Made by a program: the position numbers and the translations under genes
In this document: positions 6,215 to 31,096 of the stretch, in pieces
Position numbering within the stretch: position 1 is the stretch's first letter
Layout of the letters: every line of letters starts with the position of its first letter
Notes under the pieces: model-generated
The model's input: the letters and a program-made list of their open reading frames with translations, nothing else
Database searches by the model: none
Told to the model about the DNA's origin: nothing
Source of the DNA: an uncultured Clostridia bacterium
GTDB taxonomy: Bacteria > Bacillota > Clostridia > Oscillospirales > Acutalibacteraceae
DNA length: 64,000 bases
Reading direction: 5' to 3'
Assembly (NCBI GenBank): GCA_947624285.1
Contig: CANQJS010000002.1
Location: 80,993-144,992, forward strand

Positions 6215-6832
6215 AACAAATGTATCCAAAAGATAGTTTTCCGCTTGTTCAATAAGCGTATGTAAATCAGTTTTGTCCGCAAGATCCTCGCCCGTGCGGG
6301 ATTTATCGTCCATAAAAACAAAGCGGGCGTCCAGCATGGATATGGCGGCGGAGGCAAGCTCGTGACCTACGGAATAATCGAGCCTGAACATCTCCTGCGG
6401 CAGCTTGCCCGATTTTGCGAGTGTGAGCGCGCCGCGATATATGCAAAGCATGTAATAATCGTTTATATACTGCGCCGTCTCCTTATCCTCATTGGCGGCG
6501 GTCGCTATTTCAAGCAGCAGCTTCGTCGCCTGCGAGATCGTGGTCAGGGAATTGCTCTCTCCGCTCTCGCCCGCGCCGCGCAGATATTCCTCGTCGATAC
6601 CGTATCTGCTGTTTGAAACACCCAAAAGATAATCGGTCGTCACGCCGTAGTACTCGCTGCATTTTATAACAAAATCAAGCCCGCATTCTCTTATCCCCTT
6701 TTCATAATGGCTCAAAAGCGCCTGGCTTATGCCGAGCTCCGATGCCGTTTTCTTTTGGCTGCTTCCGCGCTCCTTTCTCAATTGAGAAAGTATGGCGGCA
6801 AATTTAGAGTTCTTTTTACCCGATGATTCCAC
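6206..6832 (-). CDS. XRE-family helix-turn-helix regulator
   Basis: 208-residue cytoplasmic DNA-binding protein. Residues about 10-65 form a Cro/CI-type HTH (LRKERGSSQKKTASELGISQ, then ALLSHYEKGIRECG). The C-terminal ~130 residues are helical and unassigned. Target genes cannot be told from the sequence; the neighbours on both sides are transcribed convergently or divergently. No phage or plasmid genes accompany it, so it is probably a chromosomal regulator. Confidence 0.85.
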   Translation of the reverse strand: MESSGKKNSKFAAILSQLRKERGSSQKKTASELGISQALLSHYEKGIRECGLDFVIKCSEYYGVTTDYLLGVSNSRYGIDEEYLRGAGESGESNSLTTISQATKLLLEIATAANEDKETAQYINDYYMLCIYRGALTLAKSGKLPQEMFRLDYSVGHELASAAISMLDARFVFMDDKSRTGEDLADKTDLHTLIEQAENYLLDTFVSE

Positions 6833-23020: not shown

Positions 23021-23629
23021 TCAGCTCCGCCTTGTCAAAAACGAGTGGAGCGGCTTATAAACGGGCGTTGAAACGGCGGCGCAGATAAGCCCCTTTACTA
23101 CAGTGAACGGAATATTGAATATTATAAGCGCCTGCAATATGTTCTTTGTGGAGGGAAGAATAACGCGATACATTTCGAGGATCGCCTCCTGCGGAAAGCC
23201 CATAACGCCGTAATACAGCGGATAGATAACAAAATAATTGAGCGGTAGGGAGACAATGCCCATTATGACGGAAGCGCACACGCCGGCAAATGCCGCGCCT
23301 CCGAGGGTTTGCCTCTTTTTGTAAATCAAGCCCGCGCAAAGCGCAAAAGACGCGCCTAAAACAAAATTGGAAAGCTCGCCGATATACATGCTTGAGCTCA
23401 GCGGCAGATGGATCAGATTTTTAAGAAACGCTATAAAAACCCCCGCCGTCGGGCCGTAGACAAAAGCCCCGATAAGCTCGGGAATATCCGAAAAATCCAG
23501 CTTAATAAAAGACGGAACTATCGGAATCGGCACTTCGATAAACTGAAGCGCCGCCGCAATGGCGGTCAATAGGGCGACGGTGGTGATCTTGATAACGGTC
23601 GCGTGATTTTTGTTTTTTGTTGCTTGCAT
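23021..23629 (-). CDS. ribU: ECF transporter S component for riboflavin
   Basis: Membrane substrate-binding subunit that captures riboflavin for an ECF-type importer (EcfAA'T encoded elsewhere). 202 residues, about six hydrophobic segments. The S-component hallmark FSDIPELIGAFVYGPTAGVFIAFLKN follows the first helices, preceded by LDF. The ATG at 23629 follows an AAAGGAG ribosome site; an open frame continues upstream but would run into the riboswitch. Control by an FMN riboswitch makes the riboflavin assignment firm. Confidence 0.94.
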   Translation of the reverse strand: MQATKNKNHATVIKITTVALLTAIAAALQFIEVPIPIVPSFIKLDFSDIPELIGAFVYGPTAGVFIAFLKNLIHLPLSSSMYIGELSNFVLGASFALCAGLIYKKRQTLGGAAFAGVCASVIMGIVSLPLNYFVIYPLYYGVMGFPQEAILEMYRVILPSTKNILQALIIFNIPFTVVKGLICAAVSTPVYKPLHSFLTRRS

Positions 23630-23649
23630 AACGATTTCTCCTTTATAGG

Positions 23650-23683
23650 GCAAAAGAGAAGCCCTCGGCAAAATACCGAGGGC
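23650..23683 (-). terminator. expression-platform terminator of the FMN riboswitch
   Basis: Stem GCCCTCGG / CCGAGGGC followed on the minus strand by a T-rich TTCTCTTTT. It sits between the aptamer and ribU, where FMN binding would favour termination. Confidence 0.75.
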
Positions 23684-23723
23684 GTAAATGTTCTGACTTT
23701 TTAAGGCTTTCGCCTCAAACATT

Positions 23724-23836
23724 TTCTCTCATCCGGACTTTAACCGTCGGTATCGGAATTTCGCCGATTCAGCCGCAACGCCGTTGCGGTTCGCAGACTT
23801 TACTGCCGGTGGGGAATTTCACCCCGCCCCGAAAAT
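23724..23836 (-). ncRNA. FMN riboswitch (RFN element)
   Basis: On the minus strand the conserved RFN blocks occur in order: GGGGCGGGGTGAAATTCC, CCCCACCGGC, AGTAAAGTCTGCGA, CCGACGGT and AGTCCGGATGAGAGAA. This is a complete aptamer. It represses ribU when FMN is plentiful. Confidence 0.97.
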
Positions 23837-23849
23837 ATTTTGTAACAGT

Positions 23850-26562: not shown

Positions 26563-26847
26563 ATGTTTGATGAGGAATTGATATATGATCTTTCGGATCT
26601 TTTCAAGGTTTTTTCCGATTCCACAAGAATAAAGGTGCTGTGCTCTCTGTTTGACAGAGAGCTGAATGTAACGGAGATAACGGCGGCAACGGGCGTGAGC
26701 CAAACCGCCGTTTCCCACCAGCTTAGGATCTTAAAGCAGAATCATCTTGTAAAATACCGGCGGGACGGGAAGCAGATGGTATATTCCCTTTCCGACGATC
26801 ATGTTAAAACCATCATAAATTGCGGTATAGAGCATATAGAGGAGTGA
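26563..26847 (+). CDS. ArsR/SmtB-family zinc-sensing repressor
   Basis: 94-residue winged-helix repressor. The recognition helix region reads TGVSQTAVSHQLRIL. The C-terminal helix carries Asp78, His80, His91 and Glu94, an exact D-x-H-x10-H-x2-E match to the alpha-5 zinc site of SmtB/CzrA/ZiaR-type sensors; the CxC alpha-3 site of cadmium/lead sensors is absent. It should therefore release its operator when zinc is high. It is the first gene of a two-gene operon with the P-type ATPase, whose start lies five bases beyond its stop. Confidence 0.93.
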   Translation: MFDEELIYDLSDLFKVFSDSTRIKVLCSLFDRELNVTEITAATGVSQTAVSHQLRILKQNHLVKYRRDGKQMVYSLSDDHVKTIINCGIEHIEE

Positions 26848-26852
26848 ATTAT

Positions 26853-28862
26853 ATGGAAAAAGAACATAACGGCTGCTGTTGTGCCGAAAACGAGCATAAA
26901 CACAACCACGAGCACGAGCACGCACACGATCACCACGACGACGGCTGCGGCTGCGGTCACGACCATGAGCACGGCGGCGAGGTAAACAAGGGCGAATTTC
27001 TCTTTAAAGTAATTTTCGGCGGAGTTTTTCTGATTGCGGGATACATATTAAGCGAATTTACGCAGATAAATTTCTATATACCGCTTATCTGCTTTGCCGT
27101 GTCGTATCTTGTTGTAGGCTTCGGAATACTGCGTGAGGCGGCGGAGGGCATTATCCACGGCAATATATTCAATGAGAATTTTCTTATGGGCATAGCGTCT
27201 ATAGGCGCGTTTGCCGTGGGAGAATACACAGAGGGCTGCGCCGTTGTGCTGCTTTACACGATAGGCGAATTTTTGCAGGATCTTGCGGTGGGAAAAAGCA
27301 GAAAATCAATTTCCGATATGGTCAAAACGAAGCCGCAGACAGTAAGCGTGATAAGAGACGGCAAAAAAGTGAGCGTTTCACCCGAGGAGATCGAGGTCGG
27401 CGAGGAATTTATCGTTGAGCCCGGTCAGAGAACGGACCTTGACGGCGTTGTTATCGGCGGTAGCGCGGAGGTGGATATGTCCGCTCTCACGGGCGAGAGC
27501 ATTCCCGTTTCCGTTTCGCCGGGCAGTAAGCTGCTTTCTGGCTGTGTATCGCTTGACGGAGCATTGACCGTCAGGGCGGAAAAACGCTACCACGAATCGA
27601 CTGTTGCGAGAATACTTGAAATGATAGAGGATTCGGGGGAGAAAAAGAGCGCGGCGGAAAAATTCATAAGCCGATTTGCGAGAATTTATACTCCGATAGT
27701 TTGCCTTATCGCGCTGCTCATAATCCTGATACCCCCGCTGTTTTTTGACGGAAGCTGGAAGGAGTGGGCTTACAGGGGTCTTTCCGCGCTTGTAGTATCC
27801 TGCCCCTGCGCCATAGTCATCTCAATTCCCCTGAGCTTTTTTGCCGGCATCGGCGCTTGCTCAAAGCAGGGGATACTTGTAAAGGGTAGCACCTATCTTG
27901 AAACGCTCGCAAAATGCACAGTCGGCGTGTTTGACAAAACGGGAACGATAACAAGCGGAAAGTTTGAATATGTAAGCTGCGAATGCGTCCACTGCCATTG
28001 TAAAAACAGGGTCGAGCACAGGGAGCTTTTGGGTCTTATCGCCGCGTGCGAAAAATACTCCACGCACCCGATAGCAAAATCTGTTTCGCTTGCCTTTGGC
28101 ACTTATGCGGAGGGGCTTGAGGCGACAGACGCCAAAAATTACGCCGGAATGGGAGTTTCCGCAGTTATAAACGGCAAAAAATATTACGCCGGCAACGAAA
28201 AGCTGATGGCAGAGGTGGGCGTTGAGTTTACGGAAACGAAAAAAGCGGGCACGGCAATATATCTTTGCACCGACGATGAGTTTTTGGGAGACATCGTTTT
28301 CGCGGATTTCATAAAGGCGGACAGTAAAAAGGCTCTCGCGCAGCTCAAGGATATGGGCGTGAAAAAAACATATATGCTTACGGGCGACAAAGAGCCGATA
28401 GCAAAGGAAATTGCCGAAAAAGCAGGCATAGACGAGTATCGGGCAAGACTGCTGCCCGATGAAAAGGTGGAGCAAGTGCGCGAAATCAAGAAAGACTCAA
28501 ATCCCACGGTATTTTATGTGGGAGACGGCATAAACGACGCGCCGGTACTTGCCGAAGCGGATCTCGGCATCGCAATGGGCGCGGCGGGCTCTGATATCGC
28601 GATAGAGGCGGCGGATGTGGTCATTATGGGCGACAGTCTTTCAAAAATCCCCGTCGGGAGAACGATAGCGAAAAAGACGATGAAAATCGTAAATGAAAAT
28701 GTGATATTCAGCATAGGCGTTAAAGTTCTTATAATAATCGGCTGCGCTATCGGAATATTCAACGAAAACGCAATGTGGCTGGCGGTTTTCGGCGATGTGG
28801 GCGTTTGCCTTATAGCCATAGCCAATTCGCTAAGAGCGATGTATTACAAAAAGATAAAATAA
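26853..28862 (+). CDS. P1B-type heavy-metal (probable zinc) exporting ATPase with His-rich N-terminus
   Basis: 669 residues from the ATG at 26853, which follows GAGGAGTGA. It has no ferredoxin-like HMA domain; residues 1-43 are instead rich in His, Cys and Asp (CCC, HNHEHEHAHDHHDD, GCGCGHDHEHGG), a probable metal-binding tail. The ATPase core is complete: TGES actuator motif, SCPCAIVIS membrane metal site, DKTGT phosphorylation site, HP locus STHPIA, and GDGINDAPVLAEADLGIAMG hinge. CPC with a zinc-sensing regulator points to Zn(II)/Cd(II) efflux. A strong terminator follows. Confidence 0.93.
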   Translation: MEKEHNGCCCAENEHKHNHEHEHAHDHHDDGCGCGHDHEHGGEVNKGEFLFKVIFGGVFLIAGYILSEFTQINFYIPLICFAVSYLVVGFGILREAAEGIIHGNIFNENFLMGIASIGAFAVGEYTEGCAVVLLYTIGEFLQDLAVGKSRKSISDMVKTKPQTVSVIRDGKKVSVSPEEIEVGEEFIVEPGQRTDLDGVVIGGSAEVDMSALTGESIPVSVSPGSKLLSGCVSLDGALTVRAEKRYHESTVARILEMIEDSGEKKSAAEKFISRFARIYTPIVCLIALLIILIPPLFFDGSWKEWAYRGLSALVVSCPCAIVISIPLSFFAGIGACSKQGILVKGSTYLETLAKCTVGVFDKTGTITSGKFEYVSCECVHCHCKNRVEHRELLGLIAACEKYSTHPIAKSVSLAFGTYAEGLEATDAKNYAGMGVSAVINGKKYYAGNEKLMAEVGVEFTETKKAGTAIYLCTDDEFLGDIVFADFIKADSKKALAQLKDMGVKKTYMLTGDKEPIAKEIAEKAGIDEYRARLLPDEKVEQVREIKKDSNPTVFYVGDGINDAPVLAEADLGIAMGAAGSDIAIEAADVVIMGDSLSKIPVGRTIAKKTMKIVNENVIFSIGVKVLIIIGCAIGIFNENAMWLAVFGDVGVCLIAIANSLRAMYYKKIK

Positions 28863-28970: not shown

Positions 28971-29690
28971 TCAGTCGGTCGGCGAGGTAACATAATACCA
29001 TTCTATAATATCCCCGTCCAAAACGGTATATTTATTCGCGGGCTTGAGGGGCTTTTCGCCGTTTATTCTATACATCCAGCCGCTGCCCGCGCCGCAGTCC
29101 TTTTCCGAAAGTCCGCCAATGCCCTGAATGTATGATTTCGACTGATATTTCAAGGCGATATTATTTTTTTCGCATATTTTCTCGAGCAGGGAGAACGCCG
29201 TTTCGCCCTGCTCGGCGGAAAGCTTTACGGGAGCGAGAATAATACCGCCCCGCGGCAGATCCTTTCCGTAAGCCGATGCTGTTTCTGCGTTTATTGAAAA
29301 GGTCACTGTCAAGGTCTGCTTTTGTGTGGAGCTTTGCGCGGCGGTGGGCTTTGTCGGTTTTTGCGAGGTCTGCGCGGTCGCGGCGGCGGTGGGCTTTGCG
29401 AGAGTTGTTTTTACCGTTGCGGGCTTTTCGGTCGCGCGCGAGGTCTCTGGTAGTTGATGTGCGGTCTTTTCGTTCGTCGTCTCGGGTAAATCGGCGGAAG
29501 TCTTTTCCGTTTTCGCGCCGCCGGCAAGCGTTTCGGAATTATCGGCGGTCGAAGCAAAGCTTTCATCACTTGTAAGCACCGCCTGCGCCGTGCTTTCTTC
29601 CCTGTTGATATTTGAGAAATGCCGAGCCGTTATAATAGCGGCGCAAAGGCATATCAAAATTGTGACCGTGATGATGATTTTCTTGTTCAT
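28971..29690 (-). CDS. exported DUF4430 protein, transcobalamin C-terminal-like domain
   Basis: 239 residues: N-terminal membrane/signal helix (about 4-22), a Thr/Ala/Lys/Pro-rich disordered linker (about 30-125), and a C-terminal DUF4430 domain (about 127-235) with ETAFSLLEKICEKNN, GIGGLSEKDCGAGSGWMYRING and DGDIIEWYYV. DUF4430 corresponds to the small beta domain of animal intrinsic factor and transcobalamin. The divergent neighbour is an alpha-barrel protein under a cobalamin riboswitch, so together they may form a split cobalamin-binding unit. No Shine-Dalgarno precedes the ATG; the predicted transcript starts at the A of ATG (leaderless). Confidence 0.87.
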   Translation of the reverse strand: MNKKIIITVTILICLCAAIITARHFSNINREESTAQAVLTSDESFASTADNSETLAGGAKTEKTSADLPETTNEKTAHQLPETSRATEKPATVKTTLAKPTAAATAQTSQKPTKPTAAQSSTQKQTLTVTFSINAETASAYGKDLPRGGIILAPVKLSAEQGETAFSLLEKICEKNNIALKYQSKSYIQGIGGLSEKDCGAGSGWMYRINGEKPLKPANKYTVLDGDIIEWYYVTSPTD

Positions 29691-29696
29691 AAGCGT

Positions 29697-29725
29697 ATAA
29701 TAACATATTTTAGGCAGTTTGACAA
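29697..29725 (-). promoter_or_regulatory. promoter of the DUF4430 gene, predicted leaderless
   Basis: Minus-strand TTGTCA, 17-base spacer, TATTAT with an extended TGn. The A of the start codon is 7 bases beyond the -10, at the expected +1. Its -35 overlaps the -35 of the divergent promoter. Confidence 0.62.
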
Positions 29726-29748
29726 CGGCAATAGCGTGATGTTATAAT
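29719..29748 (+). promoter_or_regulatory. promoter of the cobalamin-riboswitch transcript
   Basis: TTGACA, 18-base spacer, TGTTATAAT (extended -10). It shares five of six -35 bases with the divergent minus-strand promoter. Confidence 0.75.
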
Positions 29749-29751
29749 CAA

Positions 29752-29930
29752 AACCGTGCCGAGAAAAGTTTGCCGCTTTTCACGGGGAATGCGGTGAAAA
29801 ACCGCAACAGCTCACTCTACTGTAAGCAGATACGAGATCCATTGCCACTCGGAAACGGGGAAGGCGGATTCAGGCAACGCCCTTTACGGCGCGAAAGGGA
29901 AAAAGCTGCGAGTCAGGATATCCGTTTGAG
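29752..29930 (+). ncRNA. cobalamin riboswitch
   Basis: Recognisable conserved blocks in order: GGGGAATGCGGTGAAAAACCGC, an ACTGTAAGC variant of the CCCGCNACTGTNA block, GCCACTCGG, GGGGAAGGCGG, and AGTCAGGATATCC. The core is present with some divergence in the CCCGC box (here CTCACTCTACTG). It ends about 30 bases before the start codon of the alpha-barrel protein, suggesting control of translation; no intrinsic terminator is obvious after it. Block sequences are quoted in fragments; exact ends are estimates. Confidence 0.87.
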
Positions 29931-29961
29931 GCACAAATAATAATTACGGTGAGGTAATGAA

Positions 29962-31038
29962 ATGAAAAGAATTTTGGCAGCGCTCCTTACGGTGACGCTG
30001 GTCATATCCGCATCGGTGACCGCGTTCGGAGCAACAAAAAGCGATGTGAAGGAAAAAATACAAACAGCCGCGGCATACGCCCTTGACGAATGCTACGGAA
30101 AAGACGGCTACACCGTTGAAAACTCAAAATATTATCTTATGTATATAAAAGCGGGCGGGAGCTCGGATGAATACGCCTCCGGCTATCTCGAAACCGTAAA
30201 GGCGGCTCTCGGCGACGGCTCTCTTGCCGGTATAGGCACTCTCGGCAGAACGCTGAAGATTATGAGCTTTTTGGGCGTTGATCCGCGTGATTTTGAGGGC
30301 GTTGACCTTGCAACCGCGTTCGAGGCAACGGATGTTACGGAAAACGAATATACGCCCTACAGCTATTTGGACGGCGTTGAGGCGGCAAAAGCGCTTGGGC
30401 TTGATGATTACGGCAAAAAGCTGTGCGATCAGATGCTCACCTATTATAAAATGGGCGAGGGCACCGATTTTTGGGGCGGCTACGGCACTTCGCCCGATGA
30501 CCTTTCGGTATTTGTTTTGACCCTTGCGCCGTATGCCGATGATTATAAGGAATATATAGCCGATGCGCTTGCGCTTATCGAGGGATATAACTCCGACGCG
30601 GGCTACACCTCCTACGGAGAAGCGAACGCAGACTCCACGGCGTATGTGCTTGCGGCGTATTCCGCGCTGAGCGATAAGGCGGCGGCGGACGCGGCTTACG
30701 ATAAGCTGATGCTGTTTTACGATGACGAAACGGGCGGCTTTACAGGCTCATGGGACGATTACTATGCCACGGCGGACGCGCTTTTCGGACTTGAATATTA
30801 TGCCGAAACAGCCGACGCGGATGAGCCGGAACAACCCGAAACAAAGCCCGATACCGAAACGCCGACTCAGCAGACGACGCAAAAGCCTGCCGAGGAAAAG
30901 CCCGCGGCAAAGCCTGCCGATAAAGACGAAAACAAATCGCCCGACACAGGCGCTTCCGGCGGCGCGGCGCTTATTGCCGCCGCGGCACTGACGGCGCTTG
31001 CTCTTTGCGCGACCGCGCGAAAGAAAGACGGCGAATAA
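29962..31038 (+). CDS. surface-anchored alpha-barrel protein (squalene/prenyltransferase-repeat, intrinsic-factor-like)
   Basis: 358 residues. Signal peptide MKRILAALLTVTLVISAS... ending near AFGA (about residue 23). Residues about 25-275 are helical repeats of the terpenoid-cyclase/prenyltransferase alpha6-alpha6 barrel type, with repeat-like segments ADSTAYVLAAYSAL and YATADALFGLEYY. A Thr/Pro/Lys/Glu-rich spacer follows, then SPDTG, a membrane helix and RKK, a sortase cell-wall anchor of the SPDTG type. Animal cobalamin carriers use this same barrel. Cobalamin-riboswitch control supports a role in vitamin B12 capture at the cell surface. GTGAGG ribosome site, spacing 7. Confidence 0.86.
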   Translation: MKRILAALLTVTLVISASVTAFGATKSDVKEKIQTAAAYALDECYGKDGYTVENSKYYLMYIKAGGSSDEYASGYLETVKAALGDGSLAGIGTLGRTLKIMSFLGVDPRDFEGVDLATAFEATDVTENEYTPYSYLDGVEAAKALGLDDYGKKLCDQMLTYYKMGEGTDFWGGYGTSPDDLSVFVLTLAPYADDYKEYIADALALIEGYNSDAGYTSYGEANADSTAYVLAAYSALSDKAAADAAYDKLMLFYDDETGGFTGSWDDYYATADALFGLEYYAETADADEPEQPETKPDTETPTQQTTQKPAEEKPAAKPADKDENKSPDTGASGGAALIAAAALTALALCATARKKDGE

Positions 31039-31057: not shown

Positions 31058-31096
31058 AAAAAGGCATTCCCGCAGTTTTTGCGAGAATGCCTTTTT
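31058..31096. terminator. bidirectional terminator after the alpha-barrel gene
   Basis: Stem AAAAAGGCATTC / GAATGCCTTTTT with inner CGC/GCG pairing, between convergent genes. Confidence 0.87.

Follow-up and report, generated by a model that had tools for sequence, protein, structure and literature searches.

What is the role of a small helical surface protein whose gene lies behind a cobalamin riboswitch and back to back with the gene of a DUF4430 protein? The question is raised by a 64,000-nucleotide stretch of DNA from an uncultured Clostridia bacterium of the Acutalibacteraceae (assembly GCA_947624285.1, contig CANQJS010000002.1, positions 80,993 to 144,992), hereafter called the window. 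The open reading frames (ORFs) of this divergent pair, described in an earlier note made from the sequence, were recovered at exactly the positions given there and encode a DUF4430 protein of 239 amino acids (aa) (28971..29690, reverse strand) and a small alpha/alpha toroid of 358 aa, here termed window-type (29962..31038, forward strand; ORF call and profile matches), which is exported and wall-anchored as judged from its sequence. The pair is likely to be the extracellular part of a system by which corrinoid (vitamin B12) is scavenged.

Linkage of DUF4430 genes to cobalamin riboswitches

A match to the cobalamin riboswitch aptamer RF00174 covering the full model (positions 1–189 of 189; 60.3 bits, gathering score 31.5 bits) occupies positions 29749..29940 of the forward strand and forms the leader of the toroid gene, and of that gene only, in agreement with the riboswitch reported in the earlier note. 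Searches of the genome from which the window comes (G000; 1.59 Mb, 75% complete) found one DUF4430 gene and one cobalamin riboswitch, namely these two. The analysis was extended to 300 genomes from the larger family, in which 228 had DUF4430 and 194 the riboswitch; 150 places of each were listed, stricter filters being used in sampling the riboswitch. Among the matches listed, the two elements lay at most 8 kb apart in 52 of the 69 genomes with both, a lower bound given the 150 places listed for each, against approximately 0.5 of 69 expected by chance (one random place per 2.1 Mb genome). The connection to B12 drawn in the earlier note is thereby extended well beyond the window. The riboswitch was upstream of DUF4430 on the same strand, as in an operon, in 49 of the 52 linked regions, the three exceptions (the window's genome, G149 from the same genus, and G038) all being divergent.

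Stretches around 51 of these regions were fetched, the remaining one (G000) being the window itself, and several were clipped by contig or fetch ends. Gene content was counted with profiles built partly from the same regions, using thresholds of ≥60 bits for the toroid and 100, 400 and 60 bits for the T, A and S components, respectively, of energy-coupling factor (ECF) transporters. A toroid was present in 25 of the 52 regions (24 before the rest of a long gene in G149 was added), EcfT, EcfA and an S component occurred together in at least 29 (T and A in 31, S in 32), a toroid accompanied the full ECF set in 13 (12 without the rest of the G149 gene), and 8 regions had neither a toroid nor any ECF part. 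In a typical operon, that of G106 (L078), the riboswitch is followed by a double toroid with a dockerin, DUF4430, EcfT, a double EcfA and an S component. Dockerins occur on some related surface proteins. Matches of the T proteins to CbiQ were 36.9 bits for G039, none at 0.01 for G106 and none for G145.

The arrangement of the two surface modules varied considerably. Single proteins with the toroid followed by DUF4430, the order found in transcobalamin, are encoded in G145 (L082, 6918–8567, reverse strand) and G291 (L149, 5669–7312, forward strand), where the riboswitch lies behind the fusion gene and before the ECF genes, and the opposite order, DUF4430 then toroid, is found in G234 and G149. 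In three other genomes (G045, G164 and G011; L119, L120 and L121) the riboswitch, a DUF4430 gene and a small S component follow in separate frames, and toroid, T and A genes were not found in the stretch fetched; such a minimal layout would depend on a shared ECF module. In L064 (5659–7338, forward strand) and L066 (4229–7300, forward strand), a riboswitch-led, beta-propeller-like (PQQ_2) surface protein takes the place of the toroid.

CbrT-type importer genes and use of B12

When a profile of nine operon S components was compared with all solved structures, CbrT of 6FNP scored 72.1 bits and the next matches 25.5 and 25.1 bits; three S components from the same genus gave 53.3 bits for CbrT versus 25.8 bits for the next match. 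NCBIfam names for single S components (folate-family S component) were all below their cut-offs. In the part of the source drawn on here, 6FNP is the ECF-CbrT vitamin B12 transporter of Lactobacillus delbrueckii, which transports cobalamin and cobinamide (PMC5997447). CbrT-type ECF genes thus stand beside such surface genes in relatives, which gives substance to the importer postulated in the earlier note. Its statement that the window has no importer gene holds for EcfT, EcfA and CbrT-type S genes, which were not found there with the profiles built in this analysis; for the Btu system the coverage is different, with no FecCD match in the whole genome G000 and Btu genes not sought separately within the window. 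One EcfT (168 bits) was detected in G000.

CbiC, which marks the de novo synthesis of corrin, was found in none of 55 genomes (the 52 together with G021, G231 and G293 from the same genus), 43 of which are ≥90% complete and ≤5% contaminated, and in 7 of 14 controls. The MetH encoded in the window's genome has the homocysteine and pterin domains and both domains that bind B12. Taken together, the riboswitch link, the CbrT-type ECF genes in relatives, the absence of CbiC and the MetH of the same genome support B12 capture well, and this is probably the role of the pair. Elsewhere in the window (23021–23840, reverse strand), a flavin mononucleotide (FMN) riboswitch (114.6 bits) heads an ECF S component (PF12822, 99.9 bits) that is probably a riboflavin transporter, pointing to a shared ECF module in this species.

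The DUF4430 protein and the toroid protein

The DUF4430 protein consists of an N-terminal hydrophobic segment, a low-complexity linker of about 95 residues and a C-terminal DUF4430 domain (PF14478; residues 162–234, 28989..29207, reverse strand) scoring 65.6 bits against a curated cut-off of 23.8, which places it in the DUF4430 or transcobalamin-like SLBB clade. On this layout the protein is predicted to be membrane-tethered through its N-terminal segment. A reading as a lipoprotein was dropped since a good lipobox, seen in several relatives, is absent from the window protein. AlphaFold2 models of both proteins were based on alignments of the window and L033 proteins only (L033 being a related locus, described below). 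The DUF4430 model is weak (mean pLDDT 53.7), and its best matches in the Protein Data Bank (PDB) are the beta domains of haptocorrin, transcobalamin and intrinsic factor; the domain thus has a beta-grasp fold like the C-terminal domain of the B12 carriers, as the earlier note had anticipated. Residues 176–203, which follow the helix at the place of the B12-contacting beta-hairpin insert, do not form a hairpin in the model; this part of it is weak. The best sequence match of the DUF4430 profile to solved structures, viral VP4 (E 0.08), was taken as chance.

The toroid protein comprises a signal peptide, a helical domain, a Pro/Lys/Thr linker and a sorting signal. Its toroid domain (residues 26–286, 30037..30819, forward strand) is supported by profile match and has a low-confidence, all-helical AlphaFold2 model. 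A profile of nine toroids from relatives, themselves matching PF00432/PF13243, gave 29.0 bits to residues 26–284 of the window protein; profile–profile comparison with the relatives' toroids gave a probability of 98.5%, and a 13-row profile including the window protein reached squalene-hopene cyclase at 1.6e-15. A Pfam scan of the window protein returned neither a toroid match nor a B12-carrier family. By this indirect route of homology, the protein is assigned to the alpha/alpha toroids of the Prenyltrans / SQHop cyclase superfamily. The C-terminal sorting signal (30937..31035, forward strand) was read from the sequence as KSPDTG, a hydrophobic stretch and a basic tail RKKDGE; the same layout is seen in L033, L071, L076 and L122, and the score is below the NCBIfam cut-off (Rumino_NPXTG, 14.4 versus 23.5 bits). 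The sortase-anchored barrel of the earlier note is therefore upheld by profiles and by the reading of the sorting signal, and finds no counterpart in Pfam matches or in scores above the NCBIfam cut-off; the surface location that it gave to both proteins agrees with their sequences. A segment of the toroid (residues 163–196, 30448–30549) with the pattern KMGEGxDFWGGYGxSxDDL...LAxYADDY is near-invariant in the window, L033 and G034 and recognizable in G293; it is a candidate ligand site.

Window-type loci and same-genus genomes

When genome contigs were scanned for close relatives of the toroid, a single locus, L033, was obtained, with 82% aa identity in the toroid and 68% in the DUF4430 protein, both frames of the window being open. 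The window-type small toroid was seen at five loci (the window, L033, G293, G073 and G034). DUF4430 adjoins it in all five and a cobalamin riboswitch is present in four, and neither EcfT nor a CbrT-type S gene was found in the stretches fetched around any of them. L033 alone was retrieved by way of its toroid and the rest by way of DUF4430 or the riboswitch, so the five are not an independent sample of this adjacency. In G073 and G034, which belong to two other genera, riboswitch, DUF4430 and toroid follow in this order on one strand, so that the riboswitch may govern both genes there. The same-genus genome G149 has the layout of the window with the importer still attached: a wall-anchored protein of about 2600 aa, led by the riboswitch, in which GLUG-like repeats are combined with DUF4430 and a toroid scoring 328 bits (L153, 4847–12691, reverse strand) and, running in the opposite direction, a DUF4430-EcfT-EcfA-S operon.

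CbrT-type S genes were found in four of the five genomes of the genus (the four 98–99% complete), that is, in all except the incomplete G000. T genes of this kind scored above the CbiQ cut-off in G149, G231 and G293. In G293, G231 and G021 the S gene lies away from the DUF4430 gene, beside RecD2- and MreB-like genes named by reading; that of G231 is an open frame of 236 aa, the TGA in its match being its own stop, so that the gene is unbroken. The best match to the MreB-like neighbor in G000 has 37% identity, compared with 73% between G293 and G231. G000 is thus also without this neighbor, as would be expected if the stretch had not been assembled. In G021 a cobA/BtuR-like gene (PF02572, 139.8 bits, below the NCBIfam cut-offs) directly precedes EcfT. 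Among the five genomes, family searches found NrdJ in none, FecCD in two and CobA in two.

Transcription signals and neighboring genes

A sigma-70-type promoter-like site (29719..29748, forward strand; TTGACA-18-TATAAT, 12 of 12 consensus positions, with TG before the second hexamer) abuts the riboswitch, which begins where the promoter stops. A consensus promoter scan of the region gave 6 sites, against 2.1 expected from shuffles. A putative promoter-like site for the DUF4430 gene (29697..29725, reverse strand; 10 of 12 positions) overlaps the first hexamer of the forward site; its predicted transcription start would fall approximately at the DUF4430 start codon, making this assignment uncertain. 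A terminator-like inverted repeat followed by a T run was read from the sequence 3' of the toroid gene (31060..31096, forward strand) and is not among the sites listed by the automated promoter/terminator scan. Folding of the riboswitch and leader RNA was not distinctive (z −1.54) and a scan between the riboswitch and the toroid start codon found no terminator, so that any mode of control by the riboswitch is a guess.

Next to the pair, at 26563–28862 on the forward strand, are genes for an ArsR-like regulator and a P-type metal ATPase with a His-rich N-terminus, named by reading their sequences; they have the same position in L033 and G293 (L071).

Proposed mechanism and alternative explanations

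In the mechanism proposed here, scarcity of cobalamin would let the riboswitch permit synthesis of the toroid protein, which would be exported and become attached to the cell wall through its sorting signal, its cavity holding cobalamin. The DUF4430 protein, with a membrane-held N-terminal segment and a long outward linker, would contribute a beta domain of the transcobalamin type. This domain would cap the ligand or take it over and hand it on to a CbrT-type ECF transporter, whose genes would lie elsewhere in the genome, and MetH and the other enzymes that need corrinoid would thus be supplied. Of these elements, the binding of cobalamin, its capping and hand-over, and the presence of ECF genes in this species are inferred. 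A bolder version, in which the wall toroid and the membrane beta domain would close around cobalamin as a split transcobalamin, like intrinsic factor, and supply a CbrT-type ECF transporter with it, with the split, operonic and fused forms as living intermediates of the fusion from which animal carriers could have come, is put forward tentatively and with somewhat more doubt than belief.

Several observations weigh against assigning the pair to B12 scavenging. The riboswitch is directly upstream of the toroid gene alone, and the DUF4430 gene, transcribed in the opposite direction from a putative promoter-like site that overlaps the forward one, is outside its control. A CbrT-type S gene was not found in G000 (75% complete assembly), and the DUF4430 profile reached Transcobalamin-2 among solved structures only at E 1.6, behind chance matches. 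The toroid model is all-helical and weak (mean pLDDT 53.6). Among the matches listed, those that score best by VIA are sugar-processing alpha/alpha barrels; transcobalamin and intrinsic factor are absent from the matches listed in both structure searches made with it, which for a low-confidence model excludes nothing. The structural comparison suggested in the earlier note came out in favor of the DUF4430 domain, and since the toroid model matched general alpha/alpha barrels a transcobalamin-specific barrel is not claimed. Close relatives also diverge from the expected pattern. In G293 (L071, 98% complete), toroid, DUF4430 and ECF genes are present, no riboswitch was found (107 bases between the genes), the best B12-binding domain match is 21.5 bits, below cut-off, and family searches found neither CobA nor NrdJ. 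In G231 (L070), a riboswitch (6350–6525, reverse strand, 45.8 bits) lies beside DUF4430 and no toroid occurs in the surrounding 14 kb; the riboswitch appears stranded, as the sequence read shows no fitting gene after it on the same strand. In G021, the riboswitch heads a frame of 89 aa and a protein of 1250 aa, in which DUF4430 lies close to the end and a toroid match was not obtained. In G007 and G173 it heads beta-propeller-like proteins; the surface partner thus varies among relatives, and cobalamin is not proven to be the sole ligand. A pairing unconnected with B12 regulation, which would have told against the earlier note, was not the case in most of the relatives seen; in G293 of the same genus the pair occurs and no riboswitch was found.

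These observations bear differently on three other explanations. That toroid and DUF4430 each bind corrinoid separately, in a relay from wall to membrane with no joint sandwich, is a serious contender that falls a little short of an even chance. Gram-positive haem relays, which pass their ligand from wall to membrane, provide a model for such serial transfer. The two proteins have different anchors and different genes, and the stretches fetched for 27 of the 52 riboswitch-DUF4430 regions showed no toroid, a count which weighs against a fixed pair and suggests that DUF4430 may work alone; the DUF4430 genes next to a small S component in G045, G164 and G011 point the same way. Against a relay, transcobalamin closes the same two modules on one ligand, according to the sections of PMC1796856 drawn on here, and both domains are joined in one protein in G145, G291, G234 and G149. 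On the choice between joint closing and serial passing, the single-chain relatives favor a joint site, and the DUF4430-ECF operons without a toroid match favor a beta domain able to act alone.

Less favored, and unlikely on present evidence, is the explanation that the pair handles another ligand, such as a cobalt chelate, another tetrapyrrole or a glycan, the riboswitch merely setting a B12-limited program, for example cobalt supply or adhesion. It would accommodate the resemblance of the low-confidence toroid model to sugar-processing barrels, the dockerins on related surface proteins and the pair retained in G293 without the B12 signs sought. This explanation is countered by the linked S components, which match CbrT best, by the beta domain, which is nearest the B12 carriers, and by the riboswitch linkage in 52 of 69 genomes among the matches listed. 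That the pair is a decaying remnant, left from a B12 operon fragmented in this genus and itself being lost, seems more improbable still. In favor of this are the unlinked ECF genes of G231, G293 and G021, the riboswitch that was not found in G293 and the stranded one of G231; set against them are the open and conserved frames of both genes, with the identities to L033 given above, the consensus promoter and full-length riboswitch retained in the window, and the window-type pairs of two other genera with riboswitch and both genes in line.

Comparison with known systems

Bacteroidetes of the gut carry BtuG and BtuH, surface B12-binding lipoproteins of the outer membrane with other folds that feed BtuB, and the scavenging pair proposed here would be their likely Gram-positive counterpart. 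The SEED annotation scheme has a name for an additional lipoprotein belonging to a predicted cobalamin ECF transporter; among the papers listed by a literature search for it, none was seen to contain this name.

The idea of B12 scavenging presented in the earlier note is not new, and the general principle is already in print as a prediction: in the sections drawn on here, Burroughs et al. proposed in 2007 that B12 is scavenged by secreted, transcobalamin-like SLBB proteins of low-GC Gram-positives, which occur together with toroids and CbiO/CbiQ genes, and that these bacteria were the source of animal transcobalamin (PMC1796856). The window shares with that clade, so far as those sections describe it, the secreted DUF4430/SLBB domain, the Gram-positive anchors and the alpha/alpha toroid. 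The clade has operons with a CbiO-like ATPase and a CbiQ-like membrane protein in hosts mostly without B12 synthesis, whereas in the window toroid and beta domain are separate divergent genes and no ECF genes adjoin. The window toroid gene further differs in having a cobalamin riboswitch, a word that occurs 0 times in PMC1796856. Not found in print were a layout in which the two genes are split and divergent and the switch precedes the toroid gene alone, a count of riboswitches across the family, the assignment of the linked S component to CbrT, and the series of forms between split and fused. No experimental test of B12 binding by a bacterial DUF4430 was recognized among the papers listed by the literature searches, which did not extend to subscription journals and preprints. 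Such binding was left open by the 2007 prediction, and the link to the riboswitch and to CbrT-type ECF genes makes the call of the ligand concrete and testable.

With respect to the importer, the S components beside the relatives' surface genes match CbrT best among solved proteins, and full ECF sets occur in at least 29 of the 52 related regions, in contrast to the window, where no ECF gene is linked to the pair. According to the part of PMC5997447 drawn on, purified ECF-CbrT alone took up cobalamin in liposomes, unlike the arrangement proposed here, and no term beginning with DUF occurs in that paper. Compared with animal intrinsic factor, haptocorrin and transcobalamin, which are also the best PDB matches of the DUF4430 model, the pair has the same combination of an alpha/alpha barrel and a beta domain; unlike these single-chain carriers, it consists of two cell-anchored polypeptides encoded on opposite strands. 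The occurrence of split, in-line and both-way fused forms in one bacterial family provides a natural experiment on the origin of two-domain carriers, and it bears on the proposal that the B12 carriers of animals came from low-GC Gram-positive bacteria.

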